IMG/VR virus record: IMGVR_UViG_3300025168_014124
Location: 1 to 22,345 of that record
Length of the DNA stretch: 22,345 bases
Source: a virus
Reading direction: 5' to 3' (one strand)
The translations under genes were made by a program, and so were the position numbers. Every line of letters begins with the position of its first letter. Positions within the stretch are counted from its first letter, which is position 1. The notes beneath the pieces are model-generated. The model saw only the letters and a program-made list of their open reading frames with translations, was not told where the DNA came from and made no database searches. This document shows, piece by piece, positions 2,196 through 22,345 of this stretch.

Positions 2196-4121
2196 ATGCC
2201 GACCTACCACGCCACGATCTACCCGCCGCGCCCCATGATGCCCGATCAGGACCGCGCAGAGCATCAGCGCGCCCGGGCCGCCATCCTCGACGAGGACTTT
2301 GACCAGGTCCTCGATCACTGGCTCCGCGACTACGTCCAACCCGAGATCCTCGACACCTGGGGACAGCCGGACACAGCGAATAACCCGCTCGTCTCCTACG
2401 TCTCGCAGCTCACGACGCCGGGCCGCTACAGTCGACGCCCGATCCTGCATCATGCGAGCGCCGACGCCTCGGGCCTCCTCGCCCCGGGCGGAGCTCTGGA
2501 CGCCGCCGGGTGGTCCACGAAGGCACAGACCTACGAGAGAAAGACGATCGGCCTCGGGGACTATCTCGTCGGTCTCGATGTCCTAGACGGCGGGCTCGTC
2601 CTGTCGCTCGTCGACCCGTGCGACGTCTATCTCGAAGCCGACCCGAGACGCCCCGACCGGGCGCGGGCGCTCTGGCACCTTCGCCTCAGATGGGATCAGG
2701 TGCGCGGGCGCTACAGATGGACCTTTACGATCTACGACATCGGAGACGACTCGGGCCGTCCACCGTCGCTGCGGGTCGTCTCGGCGACCGAGAGGGACGA
2801 CGAAGGAGGCTATCGGGACCTCTCCGACGCCTACCTCGACGGGGGCGCTCTCGTCGGTGAGCTCTACCCATATCGCTTCGAGGACGGTCGCGCGTTTCTC
2901 CCGTGGACGCACTACCGAAGCGCAGATACGGGGAAGCTCTGGCACTGGTCAGAGCTTCGAGGACTGCACCGCGGCACACTGCACACCTGCACCTACAGCA
3001 CCTACACCGGGCGAGCGGCTCTCGATGCGACCGGATCGCACGTTTTGACGTGGAACCTCCAGCTCCCCGGGGCCGATGTCCGGCCGGCGAGCGGTCAGGC
3101 ATACGACGAGGCCGCGGGCTTCGGAGGCATGGGGGCGCCGGTCGAGAGTGTCCCGATCACACCGGGCGCGATCTCCGCCTGTCAGGTCGTCGAGCCTGGA
3201 GTCCAGCCGGGCGTCAGTGTCGTCGGTCCAGGTATCAACCTCGCACCATTGCACGCCTTCACCCGTGGTTATATTCATGACCTGATGCTAAACCGTGGAC
3301 TCGGTCAGGCATCGGTCGAGAAGGTGAGCGCAAACCCTGCCAGCGGGGCCGCGCTGCATATCAGCGACCGGCAGAGGCGCGAGTATCAGGAGAGGGTCGA
3401 GCCGCTGTTCCGGGCCGCAGATCTGGAGCTCATCACCAAGGCCGCAGCAATGCTCAACCGGGCGACGGGTACCCGGTACCCCGAGAGCGGCTATTCGATC
3501 GTCTACCACCGCCCGCCTCGGAGCCCGGGCGAGGAGAAGGACGCCCGAGAGCGCGACGCCTGGCTCGTCGAGAACGGCTACCGCTCCAGGGTCGATGTCT
3601 ACCGGGCGCGCTACCCGGGGCTCTCGACCGACGACGCGGTCGCCGACCTCCGACGCATCCGACGAGACGAGGCCCTCGTCGCCTCGGGCGAGATCGACGA
3701 CGACCGAGACGCAGCCCTCGAAGAGCTCCAGGCCGCCGCCGAGGCTCTGCGCTCGATGCCTATGGAGCACGAGGAGTCCACCGACGCGCTCGCCTCTGTG
3801 GAGGCCGCTCTCGCCGCTCTGGGAGACACCTCGTCACCGCCGCCGCCGGATGATAGCAACCGGCCGAAAGCATACACGGAAGAAGGCCCGCCAGAGTCGG
3901 CGCCGGATCTAGATCCCGGAGCTGAACAGGTCGCCGCTCTAGCGCTTAACGGCGCGCAGGTCACAGCGGCTCAGGGCATCGTCGAGGCTACCGCTACCGG
4001 GCGCCTCCCGAGGTCTAGCGCGCTGGCTATGCTGACGGCCTTCTTCGCAATGCCTGAAGATCAAGCCGACGCGGTCCTCGGGCCAGTCGGCGAGGGCTTT
4101 AAGCCCGAACCGCAGGATTAA
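2196..4121 (+). CDS. Portal protein
   Basis: The portal is the dodecameric ring at one capsid vertex through which DNA enters and to which the tail attaches. At 641 residues it is on the long side for the family. It directly follows the terminase. Residues about 377-425 contain the pattern SANPASGAALHISDRQRRE followed by LFRAADLELITKAAAMLNR, which resembles the clip/stem and long helix of phage portal proteins. After about residue 540 the chain becomes low-complexity and acidic, with SSPPPPDDSNR and several Glu/Pro-rich stretches, then a short helical C-terminus. That tail may be an internal extension facing the capsid lumen. No protease domain is fused. I am confident of the call from position, size and the stem pattern, not from a database match. 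Confidence 0.82.
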   Translation: MPTYHATIYPPRPMMPDQDRAEHQRARAAILDEDFDQVLDHWLRDYVQPEILDTWGQPDTANNPLVSYVSQLTTPGRYSRRPILHHASADASGLLAPGGALDAAGWSTKAQTYERKTIGLGDYLVGLDVLDGGLVLSLVDPCDVYLEADPRRPDRARALWHLRLRWDQVRGRYRWTFTIYDIGDDSGRPPSLRVVSATERDDEGGYRDLSDAYLDGGALVGELYPYRFEDGRAFLPWTHYRSADTGKLWHWSELRGLHRGTLHTCTYSTYTGRAALDATGSHVLTWNLQLPGADVRPASGQAYDEAAGFGGMGAPVESVPITPGAISACQVVEPGVQPGVSVVGPGINLAPLHAFTRGYIHDLMLNRGLGQASVEKVSANPASGAALHISDRQRREYQERVEPLFRAADLELITKAAAMLNRATGTRYPESGYSIVYHRPPRSPGEEKDARERDAWLVENGYRSRVDVYRARYPGLSTDDAVADLRRIRRDEALVASGEIDDDRDAALEELQAAAEALRSMPMEHEESTDALASVEAALAALGDTSSPPPPDDSNRPKAYTEEGPPESAPDLDPGAEQVAALALNGAQVTAAQGIVEATATGRLPRSSALAMLTAFFAMPEDQADAVLGPVGEGFKPEPQD

Positions 4122-4492: not shown

Positions 4493-5115
4493 GCGATTTC
4501 ACACAAGCACAGGTCGATCAGATCGTGAAAGAGCGCCTAGACCGTGCAAAGGTAAAGCACGCCGAGCAACTCGACGCAGTCCGGGCAGAGGCGAAGCTCG
4601 CCGGTGGTGAGATCACGAAGCTACGCGAGCGGGTCGCGGCTCTGGAGCCCTTCGAGAGTCAGGTCGGCGAGCTCCGCGGTCAGATCGAGAAGTCGACCCG
4701 ATCCCAGCTCCTCGGCTCTCTCGGGATCCCGGGCGACGCTCTCGCAGACATCGAGGCGATCTACCAGAGCCGGACGACCGGTCTCGACGAGGCGCCCACC
4801 TTCGCCGAGTTCCTCGCCGCCGACGGCCCGGGCCGGTCGGTCCCTTTACTCGCTGGCTACTTCGCGGGCGCTCCATCGGGGGACGGTGACTCCTCTGTCT
4901 CGTCGCCGAGTCCGGTATCGCTCCCGGATCTCTCTCGGGGGGCGCCCGCCTCGGGGCCTCGGTCGTCAGGCACCAGTCAGGCCGACGCGCTCGCGTTCAT
5001 CCAGTCGCCCGAGTTCGGTCGCCTGTCACGCGAGCAGCAAGACGAGGCCCTCCAGGCCGTCGAGACCCAGAGCGGCACGTCTTACGCTTCGCGGTGGTTG
5101 ACTCCACGCGCGTAA
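4489..5115 (+). CDS. Capsid scaffold protein
   Basis: Scaffold proteins guide capsid subunits to the right shell and are then lost. This 208-residue chain has the usual makeup: a long N-terminal coiled-coil (about residues 5-65, rich in Glu, Lys, Arg and Ala, such as RLDRAKVKHAEQLDAVRAEA), a disordered Ser/Pro/Gly-rich middle (about 130-165) and a short helical C-terminal end. It lies immediately before the capsid gene. I chose the GTG at 4489 because AGGGAG (4478-4483) is five bases upstream and the start overlaps the preceding stop (GTGA). An ATG at 4450 would lie deep in the previous gene. The family call rests on composition and position. Confidence 0.75.
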   Translation: MSDFTQAQVDQIVKERLDRAKVKHAEQLDAVRAEAKLAGGEITKLRERVAALEPFESQVGELRGQIEKSTRSQLLGSLGIPGDALADIEAIYQSRTTGLDEAPTFAEFLAADGPGRSVPLLAGYFAGAPSGDGDSSVSSPSPVSLPDLSRGAPASGPRSSGTSQADALAFIQSPEFGRLSREQQDEALQAVETQSGTSYASRWLTPRA

Positions 5116-9295: not shown

Positions 9296-9700
9296 ATGAG
9301 CGAGCCGATCCGACTCGGAGGGACCGACCGACGGCCCTCCGTTCTACTCATCCCGATCCGCCTCCGACTGCGGGCCGCCTACGTCGCCGCCGAGGGCTCG
9401 TCAGACGACCTGATCGCCGTCTGTGGGGCCGTCCTCGGTCAGGCCCTACCCGATACCCTCGGGGAGAGTCCGAGCGTCCAGAGGCGAGCCCTACGCGCCG
9501 ACGCGGTCGACTACGGGGAAAGGGTCGTTGATGCCCTCCTCGGTCAGGGCGTCAAGGTGCCCGAGATCATCGAGGTCGGCTCGTCCGTTCTCCTCGAAGC
9601 TCTGCGCCAGCTACCGAAGGACGACGAGATCGAGGACGCCGCGGGAAACTCACCGGCCCGGGCGGAGACCTCCACGGAGTCTTCATCCGTCTCGGGCTGA
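9296..9700 (+). CDS. Tail assembly chaperone, short form
   Basis: This 134-residue protein takes the slot of lambda gpG: between tail tube and tape measure. Tail chaperones bind the tape measure before the tube polymerises and are not in the virion. The chain is helical (ADAVDYGERVVDALLGQGVK, two helices) with a disordered acidic Ser-rich tail (ETSTESSSVSG). AAGGAGA lies upstream of the ATG. The slippery heptamer GGGAAAC occurs 17 codons before the stop in the correct register, so a fraction of ribosomes should move to the -1 frame and make the long form. Confidence 0.8.
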   Translation: MSEPIRLGGTDRRPSVLLIPIRLRLRAAYVAAEGSSDDLIAVCGAVLGQALPDTLGESPSVQRRALRADAVDYGERVVDALLGQGVKVPEIIEVGSSVLLEALRQLPKDDEIEDAAGNSPARAETSTESSSVSG

Positions 9701-9870
9701 CTCACTACGGGGACCCCATGGCTTTGTATAGACTCGGCGAGACTGACCGCGAGGCCCTCGTGGTCCTCCTCGGCTACGAGCTCCACGAGAGCCGTCAGAG
9801 GACGCGCCAGAGCCAGCCGATCAAGCACGCGTCAGGGCGCCTCGAAGCCCTCGACCGGTTCCAGGTCTGA
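9296..9870 (+). CDS. Tail assembly chaperone, -1 frameshift long form (gpG-T type)
   Basis: Slippage at GGGAAAC (9643-9649) joins codons 9296-9649 to the -1 frame from 9649 to the stop at 9868-9870. The product is 191 residues: 118 from the first frame and 73 from the second. The second frame stays open from the slip site onward and reads LTGPGGDLHGVFIRLGLTHY, then GDPMALYRLGETDREAL, with no stop until 9868, which looks like true protein upstream of the ATG at 9718. An independent 50-residue gene from 9718 is possible but lacks a good ribosome site. G/G-T frameshifting is conserved among long-tailed phages. Confidence 0.75.
9643..9649 (+). promoter_or_regulatory. Programmed -1 frameshift slippery site GGGAAAC
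   Basis: In the chaperone frame the bases read GCG GGA AAC, which is X-XXY-YYZ with X=G, Y=A, Z=C. After slipping by one base, the tRNAs pair with GGG and AAA. I see no convincing downstream pseudoknot, only short self-complementary stretches. Confidence 0.8.
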
Positions 9871-9872
9871 TC

Positions 9873-10562
9873 ATGGCCCTCTCGGAGTTCTTCCATCGCC
9901 AGATGCCGAGGTCGCGCCCGAGCCAGAAGGCTGTCAAAAAGATGGGCCGCTGGAGCCGGCGCGGACATCATTACATGAAGTACACCGGAGGGCTCCGAGA
10001 CTCGGATCTCGTTCTCCCGGATCCGCAGCTAGAGAAGAAGATTTTCCAGCTCATCGAGCAAGCCTACCCACTGATCGCGCAGTCCTTCGACCGGCACCTC
10101 GGGCCGATGGCTAATCACATGTTTAAAACTTGGCCATACGAGACCGGCCTCTCGCTCGGGCTCCTCGGCTTCGAGTGGGAGGTCACCGACACGAGCCTCG
10201 GCGGGTCTATCGTCTGCCGGGCGCCCTATGCCTATTTCATCCGAGAGGGCCGCAAAGGCAAAAAGCGAGGCCGCAAGATCGCGCGAGAGCTGACACCGGG
10301 CGAGCTCGCGATCACTGCGAAACCACCGCGCGGCGTGTCTCGCGACGAGTGGCGGCAGGCCATGATCACCGCCTCGCGTCAAGTCGACCTTGTAGACTAC
10401 GCATACGCCAAAGGCGTGCTCAGTAGGATCAAGGGCGCGCAAAAGAAACGGCGCGCGCCTCGCAAGGGGCGCCGAGTCGTCGACGCTCTCGTCTTCGATC
10501 CCGGAAAAGTCGCCGCGGGCGCTATCTATGACGACATTTTGAAGGGTCTGGGGGGCGCGTGA
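9873..10562 (+). CDS. Putative HK97 gp10-like tail completion protein
   Basis: This 229-residue basic protein lies between chaperones and tape measure. The middle (about residues 60-130) shows a helix (QLIEQAYPLIAQSFDRHL), then TWPYETGLSLGLLGFEWEV, and GSIVCRAPYAYFIREGRKGK. A TG-x-S/L...strand...APYAxFIREG order is what I expect of HK97 gp10-like neck proteins, which are usually shorter (about 110-150) and lie earlier in the operon. The extra N-terminal basic region (SRPSQKAVKKMGRWSRRGHH) and the Lys/Arg-rich segment QKKRRAPRKGRR are additions. The start is two bases after the chaperone stop. Confidence 0.55.
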   Translation: MALSEFFHRQMPRSRPSQKAVKKMGRWSRRGHHYMKYTGGLRDSDLVLPDPQLEKKIFQLIEQAYPLIAQSFDRHLGPMANHMFKTWPYETGLSLGLLGFEWEVTDTSLGGSIVCRAPYAYFIREGRKGKKRGRKIARELTPGELAITAKPPRGVSRDEWRQAMITASRQVDLVDYAYAKGVLSRIKGAQKKRRAPRKGRRVVDALVFDPGKVAAGAIYDDILKGLGGA

Positions 10563-20158: not shown

Positions 20159-20362
20159 ATGGGTGAGTGTGATCGGGCTGCGATGTCTCGGGGGGCGATG
20201 ACCGCCGGGATTGACCTGGACCAAGTCAGGGCGGCCCGTGATGCCCTCGCAGCTCTCCGCGAAGACATCCCCGACCCTGCGCCCGCCGCGGAGCCCGTCA
20301 GGGTCTCCACGATGATCCTCGCCGGTCTCCTGATCGGGGCTCTCGTTTGGCTCGTGCGCTGA
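20159..20362 (+). CDS. Small C-terminally anchored membrane protein
   Basis: This 67-residue protein is mostly helical, with a Pro-rich hinge (EDIPDPAPAAEPV, about 35-47) and a C-terminal membrane helix (TMILAGLLIGALVWLV, 51-66) ending in a single Arg. The GGGGAG upstream is a good ribosome site. The next gene's ATG overlaps its stop (TGATG). The form suggests a tail-anchored partner of the neighbouring membrane proteins; an exact role cannot be named. Confidence 0.6.
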   Translation: MGECDRAAMSRGAMTAGIDLDQVRAARDALAALREDIPDPAPAAEPVRVSTMILAGLLIGALVWLVR

Positions 20363-20748
20363 TGGATGAGCCGAGGGTCTGGGCACTTTTACAGACGCTC
20401 TCGCGTGACCTGTCAGAGGTCAGAGCAGAGGTCAGCGGGGTCCGGCGAGAGGTCGCCGAAATGCGAGAGCAGAGGATCAGGCAGGACGCCCGAGAGGAGG
20501 CTCTCGCAGAGCAAGACGCCGCGGTTCGAGCTCTCCCGGGTCGACTTGCAGAGCTAGAGCGAAGCGTCGAGGCTCGACTCCGAGAGGAGCCCGATCACCA
20601 CCGGGCCGCACTTCGCGACCCCGAGGTTCGTTCGTGGGCGTGGCGTCTTTCGGCGATGTTCTGCGCAACGGTCGTGGTCGTTGCTGGGATCATGGCGGGC
20701 ATTGTAACGGCATTACCCGAGGGGACCTTGACTGTATTCGGTAGCTGA
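20362..20748 (+). CDS. XhlA-like coiled-coil membrane protein
   Basis: This 128-residue protein has a long N-terminal coiled-coil (about residues 10-80: TLSRDLSEVRAEVSGVRRE, EMREQRIRQDAREEAL) and one membrane helix near the C-terminus (96-118: CATVVVVAGIMAGIVTAL). XhlA-type haemolysin/holin-associated proteins share this order, though they are usually shorter. I start it at the ATG at 20362, on the preceding stop, not the ATG at 20347 inside the previous gene. It closes the plus-strand module. No terminator is evident after it. Confidence 0.6.
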   Translation: MDEPRVWALLQTLSRDLSEVRAEVSGVRREVAEMREQRIRQDAREEALAEQDAAVRALPGRLAELERSVEARLREEPDHHRAALRDPEVRSWAWRLSAMFCATVVVVAGIMAGIVTALPEGTLTVFGS

Positions 20749-20814: not shown

Positions 20815-21009
20815 ATGCACCGAGGCGATCAGATACGAGCCGAGGCCGAGATCGAGGAGGCCGCTCGCCGGGCCGCCTCGGCTCTCCGACTACTCGACGA
20901 GGCCCAGCGTCTCGCCGAGCCTCATCGGTCAGACCGGATCCGGCTCGCGCGACTCGACCTCTCGGCTCTCCAGGGCTGCCACCGTCGAGCGGTCGCCGTC
21001 CTGGCGTAG
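20815..21009 (+). CDS. Small Ala/Glu/Arg-rich helical protein
   Basis: This 64-residue protein starts MHRGDQIRAEAEIEEAARRA and is probably one long helix or coiled-coil. GAGGGGGG lies five bases before the ATG, and codon use (GAG, GCC, CTC, ATC) matches the late genes. It overlaps by 81 bases the 3' end of the minus-strand operon, which makes one of the two calls less sure. The antisense frame over most of it is Arg/Pro/Gly-rich and looks like a shadow. No function is recognised. Confidence 0.5.
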   Translation: MHRGDQIRAEAEIEEAARRAASALRLLDEAQRLAEPHRSDRIRLARLDLSALQGCHRRAVAVLA

Positions 21010-21231
21010 CTTCTCGAAGAGGTCGAGGGCCTCGGACTCTAGGCGGGCAATGCACCAGGTGTGCAGCACGATCGCGCCATTCCAGCCAAGTCGGCTCACG
21101 TCGCCGTTGAAGGCTTGCGCTAGGCTTTTGCGTTGACGCTTTAGGTCGCGGGCAATGCGCGGGTTGCGCGATGCGATGGCGCTAAGAGCATCAGTCCACG
21201 TGGGCTTGGGTGGTAGTTCTTCACTCTTCAC
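20929..21231 (-). CDS. Paralog family A, copy 1 (ARLESEALDLFEK protein)
   Basis: This 100-residue protein is the most diverged of three paralogs. I chose the GTG at 21231 because VKSEELPPKPTWTDAL then aligns residue for residue with MTSEELPPGPTWGDAL of copy 2. The shared core is PPxPTWxDAL at the start and ARLESEALDL-(Y/F)-EKL near the end. Its middle (NPRIARDLKRQRKSL to LHTWC) is only weakly similar. It has a C-terminal extension (TVAALESREVESREPDPV) absent from the others, which overlaps the plus-strand gene. It overlaps the gene upstream by 11 bases. No function is known to me. Confidence 0.75.
   Translation of the reverse strand: MKSEELPPKPTWTDALSAIASRNPRIARDLKRQRKSLAQAFNGDVSRLGWNGAIVLHTWCIARLESEALDLFEKLRQDGDRSTVAALESREVESREPDPV
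21208..21226. repeat. 19-bp repeat shared by copies 1 and 2
   Basis: The same 19 bases (GGGTGGTAGTTCTTCACTC) occur at 21729-21747, at the 5' end of copy 2 of family A. The repeat encodes the SEELPP region. Confidence 0.85.
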
Positions 21232-21496
21232 CGGTCGTCCCCCATGCTGCAGCCGCATCCATGAGCCAGCGCGCTGTCAGTGCGTGGCTGCCCCGCTGAA
21301 CGTCACACTCGAAGTCAATGCAGCCCCAAGACAGCTTTATGCGCTGACCATCTAGCCAAATCAACCAGCCGGGGTTTTCCCCGTCTTCGGGCAAGACTAC
21401 ATCACCGTCCTCGTCTAAGTGCCAATCCTCGGCGGGCGCGATGTGAGCCAGCGCCGCAATAGCCTGACCCTGCCAGCTGCACGAAACATCAGTCAT
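21221..21496 (-). CDS. Small hypothetical protein Y
   Basis: This 91-residue acidic protein starts MTDVSCSWQGQAIAALAHIA. It has an acidic middle (EDWHLDEDGDVVLPEDGENP) and a beta-like stretch rich in Trp (GWLIWLDGQRIKLSWGCIDF), then a helix with SHALTARWLMDAAAAW. Its ATG lies inside the last codons of copy 2, with AGGAG seven bases upstream. Its stop overlaps the start of copy 1. It has no similarity to family A that I can see. Three cysteines are present but widely spaced. Function unknown. Confidence 0.7.
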   Translation of the reverse strand: MTDVSCSWQGQAIAALAHIAPAEDWHLDEDGDVVLPEDGENPGWLIWLDGQRIKLSWGCIDFECDVQRGSHALTARWLMDAAAAWGTTGEE

Positions 21497-21752
21497 TAGT
21501 CGTCTCCTCTTGGCTTAGCTTCTCGTAGAGGTCAAGGGCCTCGGACTCAAGCCGGGCGAGGGCTGTGCTCTGGCTGATTTTTCTATTGGCGTCCGAGTAC
21601 GCGACGCCTAAACGATTGGCCACCGCCCACGCTCGGCTGTACAGTAAATATCGGTGCTTCTCCAGCCGGTTCGCCGCTGCAAAGTCGTGCTGACGGATAA
21701 GCCGCAGAGCATCGCCCCAGGTCGGGCCGGGTGGTAGTTCTTCACTCGTCAT
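21489..21752 (-). CDS. Paralog family A, copy 2
   Basis: This 87-residue protein starts MTSEELPPGPTWGDALRLI. It shares with copy 3 the blocks RHDFAAANRLE-type (QHDFAAANRLEKHRYL here), SRAW, and ISQSTALARLESEALDLYEK. It has about ten residues more than copy 3 in the middle (NRLGVAYSDANRK region). It is helical throughout, without cysteine or membrane segment. Its ATG overlaps the stop of gene X (ATGA), and its 3' end overlaps gene Y by 8 bases, so the operon is tightly coupled. The function is unknown. Confidence 0.8.
   Translation of the reverse strand: MTSEELPPGPTWGDALRLIRQHDFAAANRLEKHRYLLYSRAWAVANRLGVAYSDANRKISQSTALARLESEALDLYEKLSQEETTND
21660..21690. repeat. 31-bp identical block in copy 2 (matches 22179-22209)
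   Basis: Thirty-one bases are identical to 22179-22209 in copy 3, starting CTCCAGCCGGTTCGCCGC. Other perfect blocks shared by copies 2 and 3 are 18 bases (21717-21734 and 22236-22253) and 21 bases (21559-21579 and 22108-22128). Confidence 0.9.
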
Positions 21753-22045
21753 CGGGCGTACGTGAGCAGGTCAAGATCGACATCAGGCGCCCCCTTCATC
21801 GGTCGCACGTCAAGCCACCCCGCCGGAATCCAGCAGCTCTGCACGTACGTCTCGGCGGGGACACAGCCCCTCTGAGTGTACACCCACGCGACGAGCGCCC
21901 ACAGGTCGCCCTCTCTGACCCCCCAAGAGGTGTCCTCAGGCGCCGCCCTGCGTGCCATGATCACAACCTCCTGCCCCTTCCGGGGCTGATTCAGCGCCCT
22001 ACCCCAGCGGGTCACGGTCGCCGTTTCGGGCGCTTTACTCGGCAT
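21749..22045 (-). CDS. Small hypothetical protein X
   Basis: This 98-residue protein starts MPSKAPETATVTRWGRALNQ. I chose the ATG at 22045 because AAGGAGG (22052-22058 on the opposite strand as CCTCCTT) lies six bases upstream; a longer Arg-rich start further upstream lies inside copy 3. The chain has beta-like stretches (GQEVVIMARRA; LWALVAWVYTQRGCVPAE; CWIPAGWLDVRPM), suggesting a small barrel. It ends DVDLDLLTYAR. It is unrelated to family A and to gene Y. It overlaps copy 3 by 11 bases and copy 2 by 4. Function unknown. Confidence 0.75.
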   Translation of the reverse strand: MPSKAPETATVTRWGRALNQPRKGQEVVIMARRAAPEDTSWGVREGDLWALVAWVYTQRGCVPAETYVQSCWIPAGWLDVRPMKGAPDVDLDLLTYAR

Positions 22046-22345
22046 CAGTCGCCTCCTTCTCGCGCATCTTCTCGTACAGGTCGAGCGCTTCGGACTCAAG
22101 GCGTGCAAGGGCTGTGCTCTGGCTGATTGCCCAAGTGGCCGGCGACCACGCGCGGCTGATGACTAGATACCGGCCATGCTCCAGCCGGTTCGCCGCTGCA
22201 AAGTCGTGCCGACGGATGACGGCTATAGCCTCGGACCAGGTCGGGCCGGGTGGCAAATCACACGCTGCACCGTCACAGTTAGCGCACAGTCGGCCGTCAC
22301 TTTCCGGGCCGCCGGGGGGCTGCTTCGGTCGCGCACACTTACAGT
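22035..22345 (-). CDS. Paralog family A, copy 3, with N-terminal Cys cluster (partial)
   Basis: The frame is open to the window edge, giving at least 102 residues; its true start lies outside. A TTG at 22256 could be an internal start, but the upstream 29 codons are clearly protein-like: CKCARPKQPPGG, then DGRLCANCDGAACDLPPGPT. The cysteines fall as C-x-C-(16)-C-x-x-C-(5)-C, a plausible zinc knuckle. The rest is the family A core: PTWSEAIAVIRRHDFAAANR, SRAW, and ISQSTALARLESEALDLYEK. It lacks about ten residues present in copy 2. Its 3' end carries the ribosome site and start of gene X. Confidence 0.78.
   Translation of the reverse strand, partial: CKCARPKQPPGGPESDGRLCANCDGAACDLPPGPTWSEAIAVIRRHDFAAANRLEHGRYLVISRAWSPATWAISQSTALARLESEALDLYEKMREKEATDAE
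22052..22058 (-). promoter_or_regulatory. AAGGAGG Shine-Dalgarno of gene X
   Basis: On the minus strand AAGGAGG lies six bases before the ATG at 22045, inside the 3' end of copy 3. It decides the start of gene X and shows that the operon has efficient internal initiation. Confidence 0.75.
22179..22209. repeat. 31-bp identical block in copy 3 (matches 21660-21690)
   Basis: This is the second copy of the 31-base perfect repeat. The distance between copies is 519 bases, so recombination between them would delete gene X with flanking halves of the paralogs. Confidence 0.9.

Follow-up and report, generated by a model that had tools for sequence, protein, structure and literature searches.

Why should a phage carry three related small genes that alternate with two unrelated single genes, and what could such an arrangement do for it? 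The stretch of DNA analysed here (the window), from an uncultivated phage, comprises a complete IMG/VR virus record (22,345 bases) of the linear class; such records are often fragments. At its end, five small genes follow one another on the minus strand in the order A''-X-A'-Y-A, each gap between the A copies holding a single small unrelated gene. With A' as query, the record returned exactly three copies on the minus strand: A' itself (21492-21752, E 1.5e-56), A'' (22044-22259, E 3.7e-26, 69% protein identity to A') and A (20998-21228, E 3.2e-12, 45% identity to A'). Compared by BLASTP, A and A' matched with an E value of 2e-16. At the DNA level, the motif common to the ends of the three proteins was found three times, versus no occurrence expected in shuffled sequence. 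These results confirm the alternation of three paralogs with two unrelated genes on the minus strand, and the common end motif, both of which had been proposed in a sequence-only reading of this DNA. The same reading had noted overlaps of 4-11 bases between neighbouring genes, and the measured values agree: 11 bases for A''/X, 4 for X/A', 8 for A'/Y and 11 for Y/A.

The first copy, A'' (22035..22343, minus strand, as are the four other genes), has an A-domain at about 22035-22259 and a frame that is open upstream. No in-frame ATG or GTG is present in the upstream part, and the frame reads CKCARPKQPPGGPESDGRLCANCDGAACD-LPPGPTW and stays open to the contig end; A'' therefore probably represents the C-terminal portion of a larger protein; at the least, TTG 22256 is no more than a putative start. 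A CxC...CxxC stretch precedes the A-domain in frame (22260-22343) and runs off the contig; it may be a small zinc-binding domain joined to A and truncated where the contig stops. Because the contig stops there, the array may continue beyond it. X (21749..22045) is a 98-residue orphan that starts within the end of A'' and ends with ATGA into A'. The second copy, A' (21489..21752), encodes 87 residues predicted to form a helical bundle. Y (21221..21496) encodes a very acidic protein of 91 residues (pI 4.1, charge about -13) and has a single-gene relative in an unrelated phage. The third copy, A (20929..21231), encodes 100 residues with A-type termini, an unrelated middle and a C-terminus that extends about 20 residues beyond those of the other copies. 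Its start is the GTG at 21231 (VKSEELPP, homologous to MTSEELPP) and not the ATG at 21258. 

At the DNA level, A'' and A' share two repeats, of 118 and 110 nt, which are 79% and 77% identical. The 3' repeat of A'' (22043..22152) ends exactly on the ATG of X, and that of A' (21494..21603, 77% identical to the A'' copy) ends exactly on the ATG of Y; GGAG stands just before the ATG in both cases, and the repeat thus includes the Shine-Dalgarno sequence of the next gene. At the opposite border, the 5' repeat of A' (21706..21759) starts 7 nt before the A' ATG, and that of A (21185..21238, 80% identical to the A' one) starts 7 nt before the A GTG, all on the minus strand. Since the A''/A' repeat ends on the next start codon and the A'/A repeat starts just before A, X and Y lie flush between the A copies. 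A scan of the array region for promoters and terminators was uninformative, and there was no Rfam match in the window.

The third copy differs from the others in its centre. A resembles A' at both termini, sharing about 18 residues at the start and about 19 at the end of the A-domain (nucleotide identity 0.72 and 0.81), whereas the middle 40 codons include a single identical codon and show a nucleotide identity of 0.33. Identical codons amount to 19/37 in the ends versus 1/40 in the central part (Fisher p 6e-7); aligned with each other, the central parts of A and A' scored no better than shuffled sequence. No such drop from ends to middle was observed between A' and A'' (p 0.22), which indicates that the middle is not simply fast-evolving. 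By this codon pattern, A is a mosaic, with A-type ends around a foreign middle. Codon matches of A' also change partner along the gene: among codons for shared residues, A' agrees with A'' at 7 of 8 in the middle and with A at 9 of 12 near the end. The silent-site version of this comparison gave p 0.04 with small numbers, and the switch hints at exchange among the copies.

Similarity of the ends is not due to DNA alone. The N-terminal codons GAA GAA CTA CCA CCC are identical in A and A', and the C-terminal silent sites have diverged. In the common C-terminus of A' and A'', pS was 0.64 and pN 0.10, and comparison of A' with A'' gave dN 0.21 and dS 0.47. As synonymous sites diverged in the common C-terminus, part of the conservation is for the protein, and A is thus under protein-level selection. 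With dN below dS, A and Y are ruled out as chance open reading frames.

The value for Y comes from its one relative (dN 0.17, dS 0.85), which encodes 87 residues in a 66.9-kb phage contig (L059), with 75% identity to Y at the protein level and 82% along 181 nt of DNA. The two phages that share Y differ in GC content, 65% versus 40% (the latter in the stretch of L059 that was read), with a local rise to 0.57-0.59 around the Y relative. At 9796-10261 of this contig, the frame of the upstream gene enters the Y relative in another frame and the GC rise starts before Y; apparently, insertion of the Y relative overwrote the 3' end of the upstream gene. A is absent from this record. The presence of the Y relative without A indicates that Y is mobile and does not require A; judged from these two sequences, Y moves as a single gene. 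Y is absent from seven kin contigs of the window, and its structure model was too poor for use (pLDDT 52). For X, neither viral contigs nor phage records yielded a relative.

The seven kin contigs have terminases 83-93% identical to that of the window and most late genes in common with it; A is absent from all of them. Three kin contigs continue beyond the late genes, and in each an operon on the opposite strand terminates at the same convergent position. In one of these (G003), the operon encodes an ERF recombinase (PF04404, E 1.8e-23) together with genes of weak helix-turn-helix likeness; farther out, the other strand carries SSB and DUF927 genes. The kin operon supports the earlier suggestion that the array is expressed early or independently of the late genes. 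Between G002 and G003, the operon includes a divergent stretch of about 760 nt, flanked by 87% and 92% identical sequences, which holds one 105-nt island that is 86% identical. Two proteins of the accessory stretch in kin (L019 4357-4728 and L021 ~9606-9956) have a common start, MNGTIGHLRNVADLVAAL (105 nt, 86%), and then diverge, which by comparison of the two makes another case in which one end is common and the rest differs. In G006, a 70-nt element present three times alternates with unrelated single early genes in the same operon and ends with AAGGAGnCAG 1-2 bases before ATG. These noncoding elements, with a Shine-Dalgarno sequence just before the ATG, lie at 3340-3409, 4847-4916 and 5246-5315 of L025 (IMGVR_UViG_3300025889_018063); one copy contains TCGACA-17-TATATT hexamers, and the element is absent from the window and from the other kin. 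The divergence between kin and the G006 repeats show that, in kin, genes at this position also turn over and repeats also stand at their starts, but through other sequences.

The end of the late genes in the window (20347-20748) encodes a 133-residue coiled-coil-like protein with a C-terminal hydrophobic segment. In kin G002 and G003, the end of the opposite-strand operon lies directly next to the gene that precedes this position; because the kin operon abuts the preceding gene, the 20347-20748 gene looks like a local insertion, maybe of a lysis gene.

The explanation that we favour, with confidence about evenly balanced, is that the array is the mosaic accessory end of an early operon, in which the A copies mark exchangeable gene slots. 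In an unclassified tailed phage, the array would form the distal part of a leftward early operon (recombination/replication), at a site of accessory-gene turnover, and would be expressed early. A would be a small helical protein under protein-level selection, and its gene would have been multiplied, with a single unrelated gene next to every copy, as is observed. The A end carries the Shine-Dalgarno sequence and start codon of the next gene, and translation of any gene placed there would be coupled via this end. Recombination between diverged A copies would duplicate, delete or replace the intervening gene and would also reshuffle the A middle; the recombinase would probably be a phage ERF-type annealing protein, as in kin. 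Y would be a passenger gene, one that also lives alone in an unrelated phage.

The three copies with their flush junctions, the mosaic A, the partner switch in the codons of A', the mobile Y, the ERF gene of the kin operon, and the divergent stretch and G006 repeats at this place in kin argue for gene slots. In published work, an Erf recombinase worked efficiently on DNA of 78% identity (PMC3945230), and the 77-79% identity of the A'' and A' copies counts in the same direction. Four observations argue against gene slots. First, profile and motif searches of viral contigs, genomes, phages and plasmids for recurrence of A returned no second genome, so that no swap between phages was seen, and we infer swapping through A from one contig. 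Second, the Y relative has no adjacent A in the other phage. Third, the repeats are short, with diverged silent sites in their C-terminal part, and purifying selection explains part of their likeness. Fourth, the window ends before any recombinase gene, and ERF is taken from kin. The proposal that the A copies act as homology islands therefore fits the anatomy of this genome (start-codon boundary, mosaic A, ERF in kin) but is not supported across genomes, as A was found nowhere else in the collections covered. A bolder form of the slot reading, which we hold to be improbable, makes A a protein-coding spacer, that is, a working protein with a built-in boundary for recombination and translation coupling, such that single early genes would be shuffled and the A core swapped between fixed ends.

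A search for relatives of A bears on what the protein itself might do. None was found in viral contigs, about 85,000 species (one genome each), 50,697 phage records or 72,556 plasmids, and the A pattern was absent from 2.9 million viral contigs and the seven kin fragments, a set from which fragments or close kin may be missing. By these searches, A is an orphan in the collections covered. Motif matches in viral contigs, genomes, phages and plasmids were due to chance only; two families, L028-L030 (LEHEALDLFEK) and L038/L044/L052 (LPPCPTW), are real phage families that carry one of the motifs but have nothing else in common with A, and they were rejected. An AlphaFold2 model of A', built from three sequences only, gave a helical bundle (mean pLDDT 87.0, pTM 0.72) with helices predicted at 12-22, 24-48, 52-60 and 63-86. 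With Foldseek, the best E values for A' were 2.9 (PDB) and 1.2 (viral library), none being below 1; a second fold comparison (VIA) gave Z scores of at most 5.7, a range that the tool deems uninformative for helical bundles. T4 Vs.4 (cGAMP-bound; Z 5.2, rmsd 6.3) stood among unrelated rows and was rejected as a relative, and homeodomain chains (homeodomain-like DNA-binding) gave only noise-level fold matches to A'. The Pfam family PF06720 (Phi29 p16.7-like) matched with E 0.11, under its cut-off. PDC-M05B, a candidate defence protein, matched A'' (E 0.0038, 15.7 bits) but neither A' nor A, and with E up to 10 its model also gave hits in 5 of 14 control genomes; this identity was set aside as weak.

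The A copies could alternatively be diversified small early inhibitors or regulators, each variant binding a different host or defence target, with X and Y as further inhibitors. The protein-level selection on A'/A'', the small size and predicted helices of A', the replacement of the A middle while the frame of both ends was kept, the early-operon position and the strong acidity of Y are all in line with this idea; DNA mimics are strongly acidic proteins, which provides an analogy for Y. Nevertheless, neither Pfam, NCBIfam, PHROGs nor PADLOC provided a trustworthy match to a known inhibitor, no fold match rose above noise, and for the host-takeover or counter-defence role suggested earlier we found no positive evidence beyond location and Y acidity. 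We regard this alternative as tentative and somewhat unlikely; a diversified inhibitor set is nonetheless possible, and it is compatible with exchangeable slots.

X and Y showed no convincing similarity to each other. If they were relatives that diverged almost past recognition, the array would derive from tandem duplication of a two-gene unit made of A and an X/Y ancestor, and local alignment of X with Y and with the Y relative is indeed better than about 98.5% and 99.7% of shuffles, respectively. However, the alignment needs many gaps, profile comparison gave a probability of 0.6% (E 0.09) and the DNA likeness of X and Y is at chance; the gappy alignment and the profile E value do not establish X and Y as relatives, and such an origin seems to us quite doubtful. 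Least probable of all is that A serves as a common adaptor or partner for each neighbouring protein, as the sequence-only reading suggested, or as an antitoxin, with X and Y as toxins. The overlap of genes in each pair is as expected of coupled partners, but the Y relative in L059 stands without A; an antitoxin unrelated to A is still conceivable there.

Single-gene exchange with exact boundaries in phages is debated, with illegitimate recombination opposed to boundary homology. If more phages with A were found, a repeated coding gene whose copies enclose single genes flush between them, in an operon that encodes an ERF recombinase in kin, would make a clear case for the boundary-homology route. 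In addition, the array adds three new small phage proteins, X, Y and A, none of which has a known relative of known function; Y is also mobile.

Three known systems resemble the array in part. Genes 67 and 68 of mycobacteriophage Island3, which are adjacent, unrelated and located in an accessory region, have a common end (last 18 residues, about 50 bp) that was taken as the trace of recombination adding or removing a gene (PMC3029335). Similarly, the three genes studied here have the last 19 or so A-domain residues and 50 nt in common; unlike Island3 67/68, they also have common N-termini, are present in three copies and enclose unrelated genes. The SAS/ESAS of cluster K mycobacteriophages, with the 13-bp noncoding consensus GGGATAGGAGCCC before start codons (PMC3203893), are likewise repeats with ribosome-binding potential just before the starts of genes of different families. 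With up to two mismatches, the SAS consensus had no match in the window or in L025, and the 70-nt repeat of G006 resembles the SAS in idea but not in sequence. Finally, short conserved boundary sequences between phage genes (discussed in PMC3233612) have, like the A''/A' repeat that ends on the X and Y start codons, a position precisely at junctions with unrelated genes between; here, however, the boundary is a whole protein-coding gene, and it was not found in another genome. In conclusion, the array is real and unusual, and it comes close to the short boundary sequences, from which it differs in being protein-coding and triplicated.
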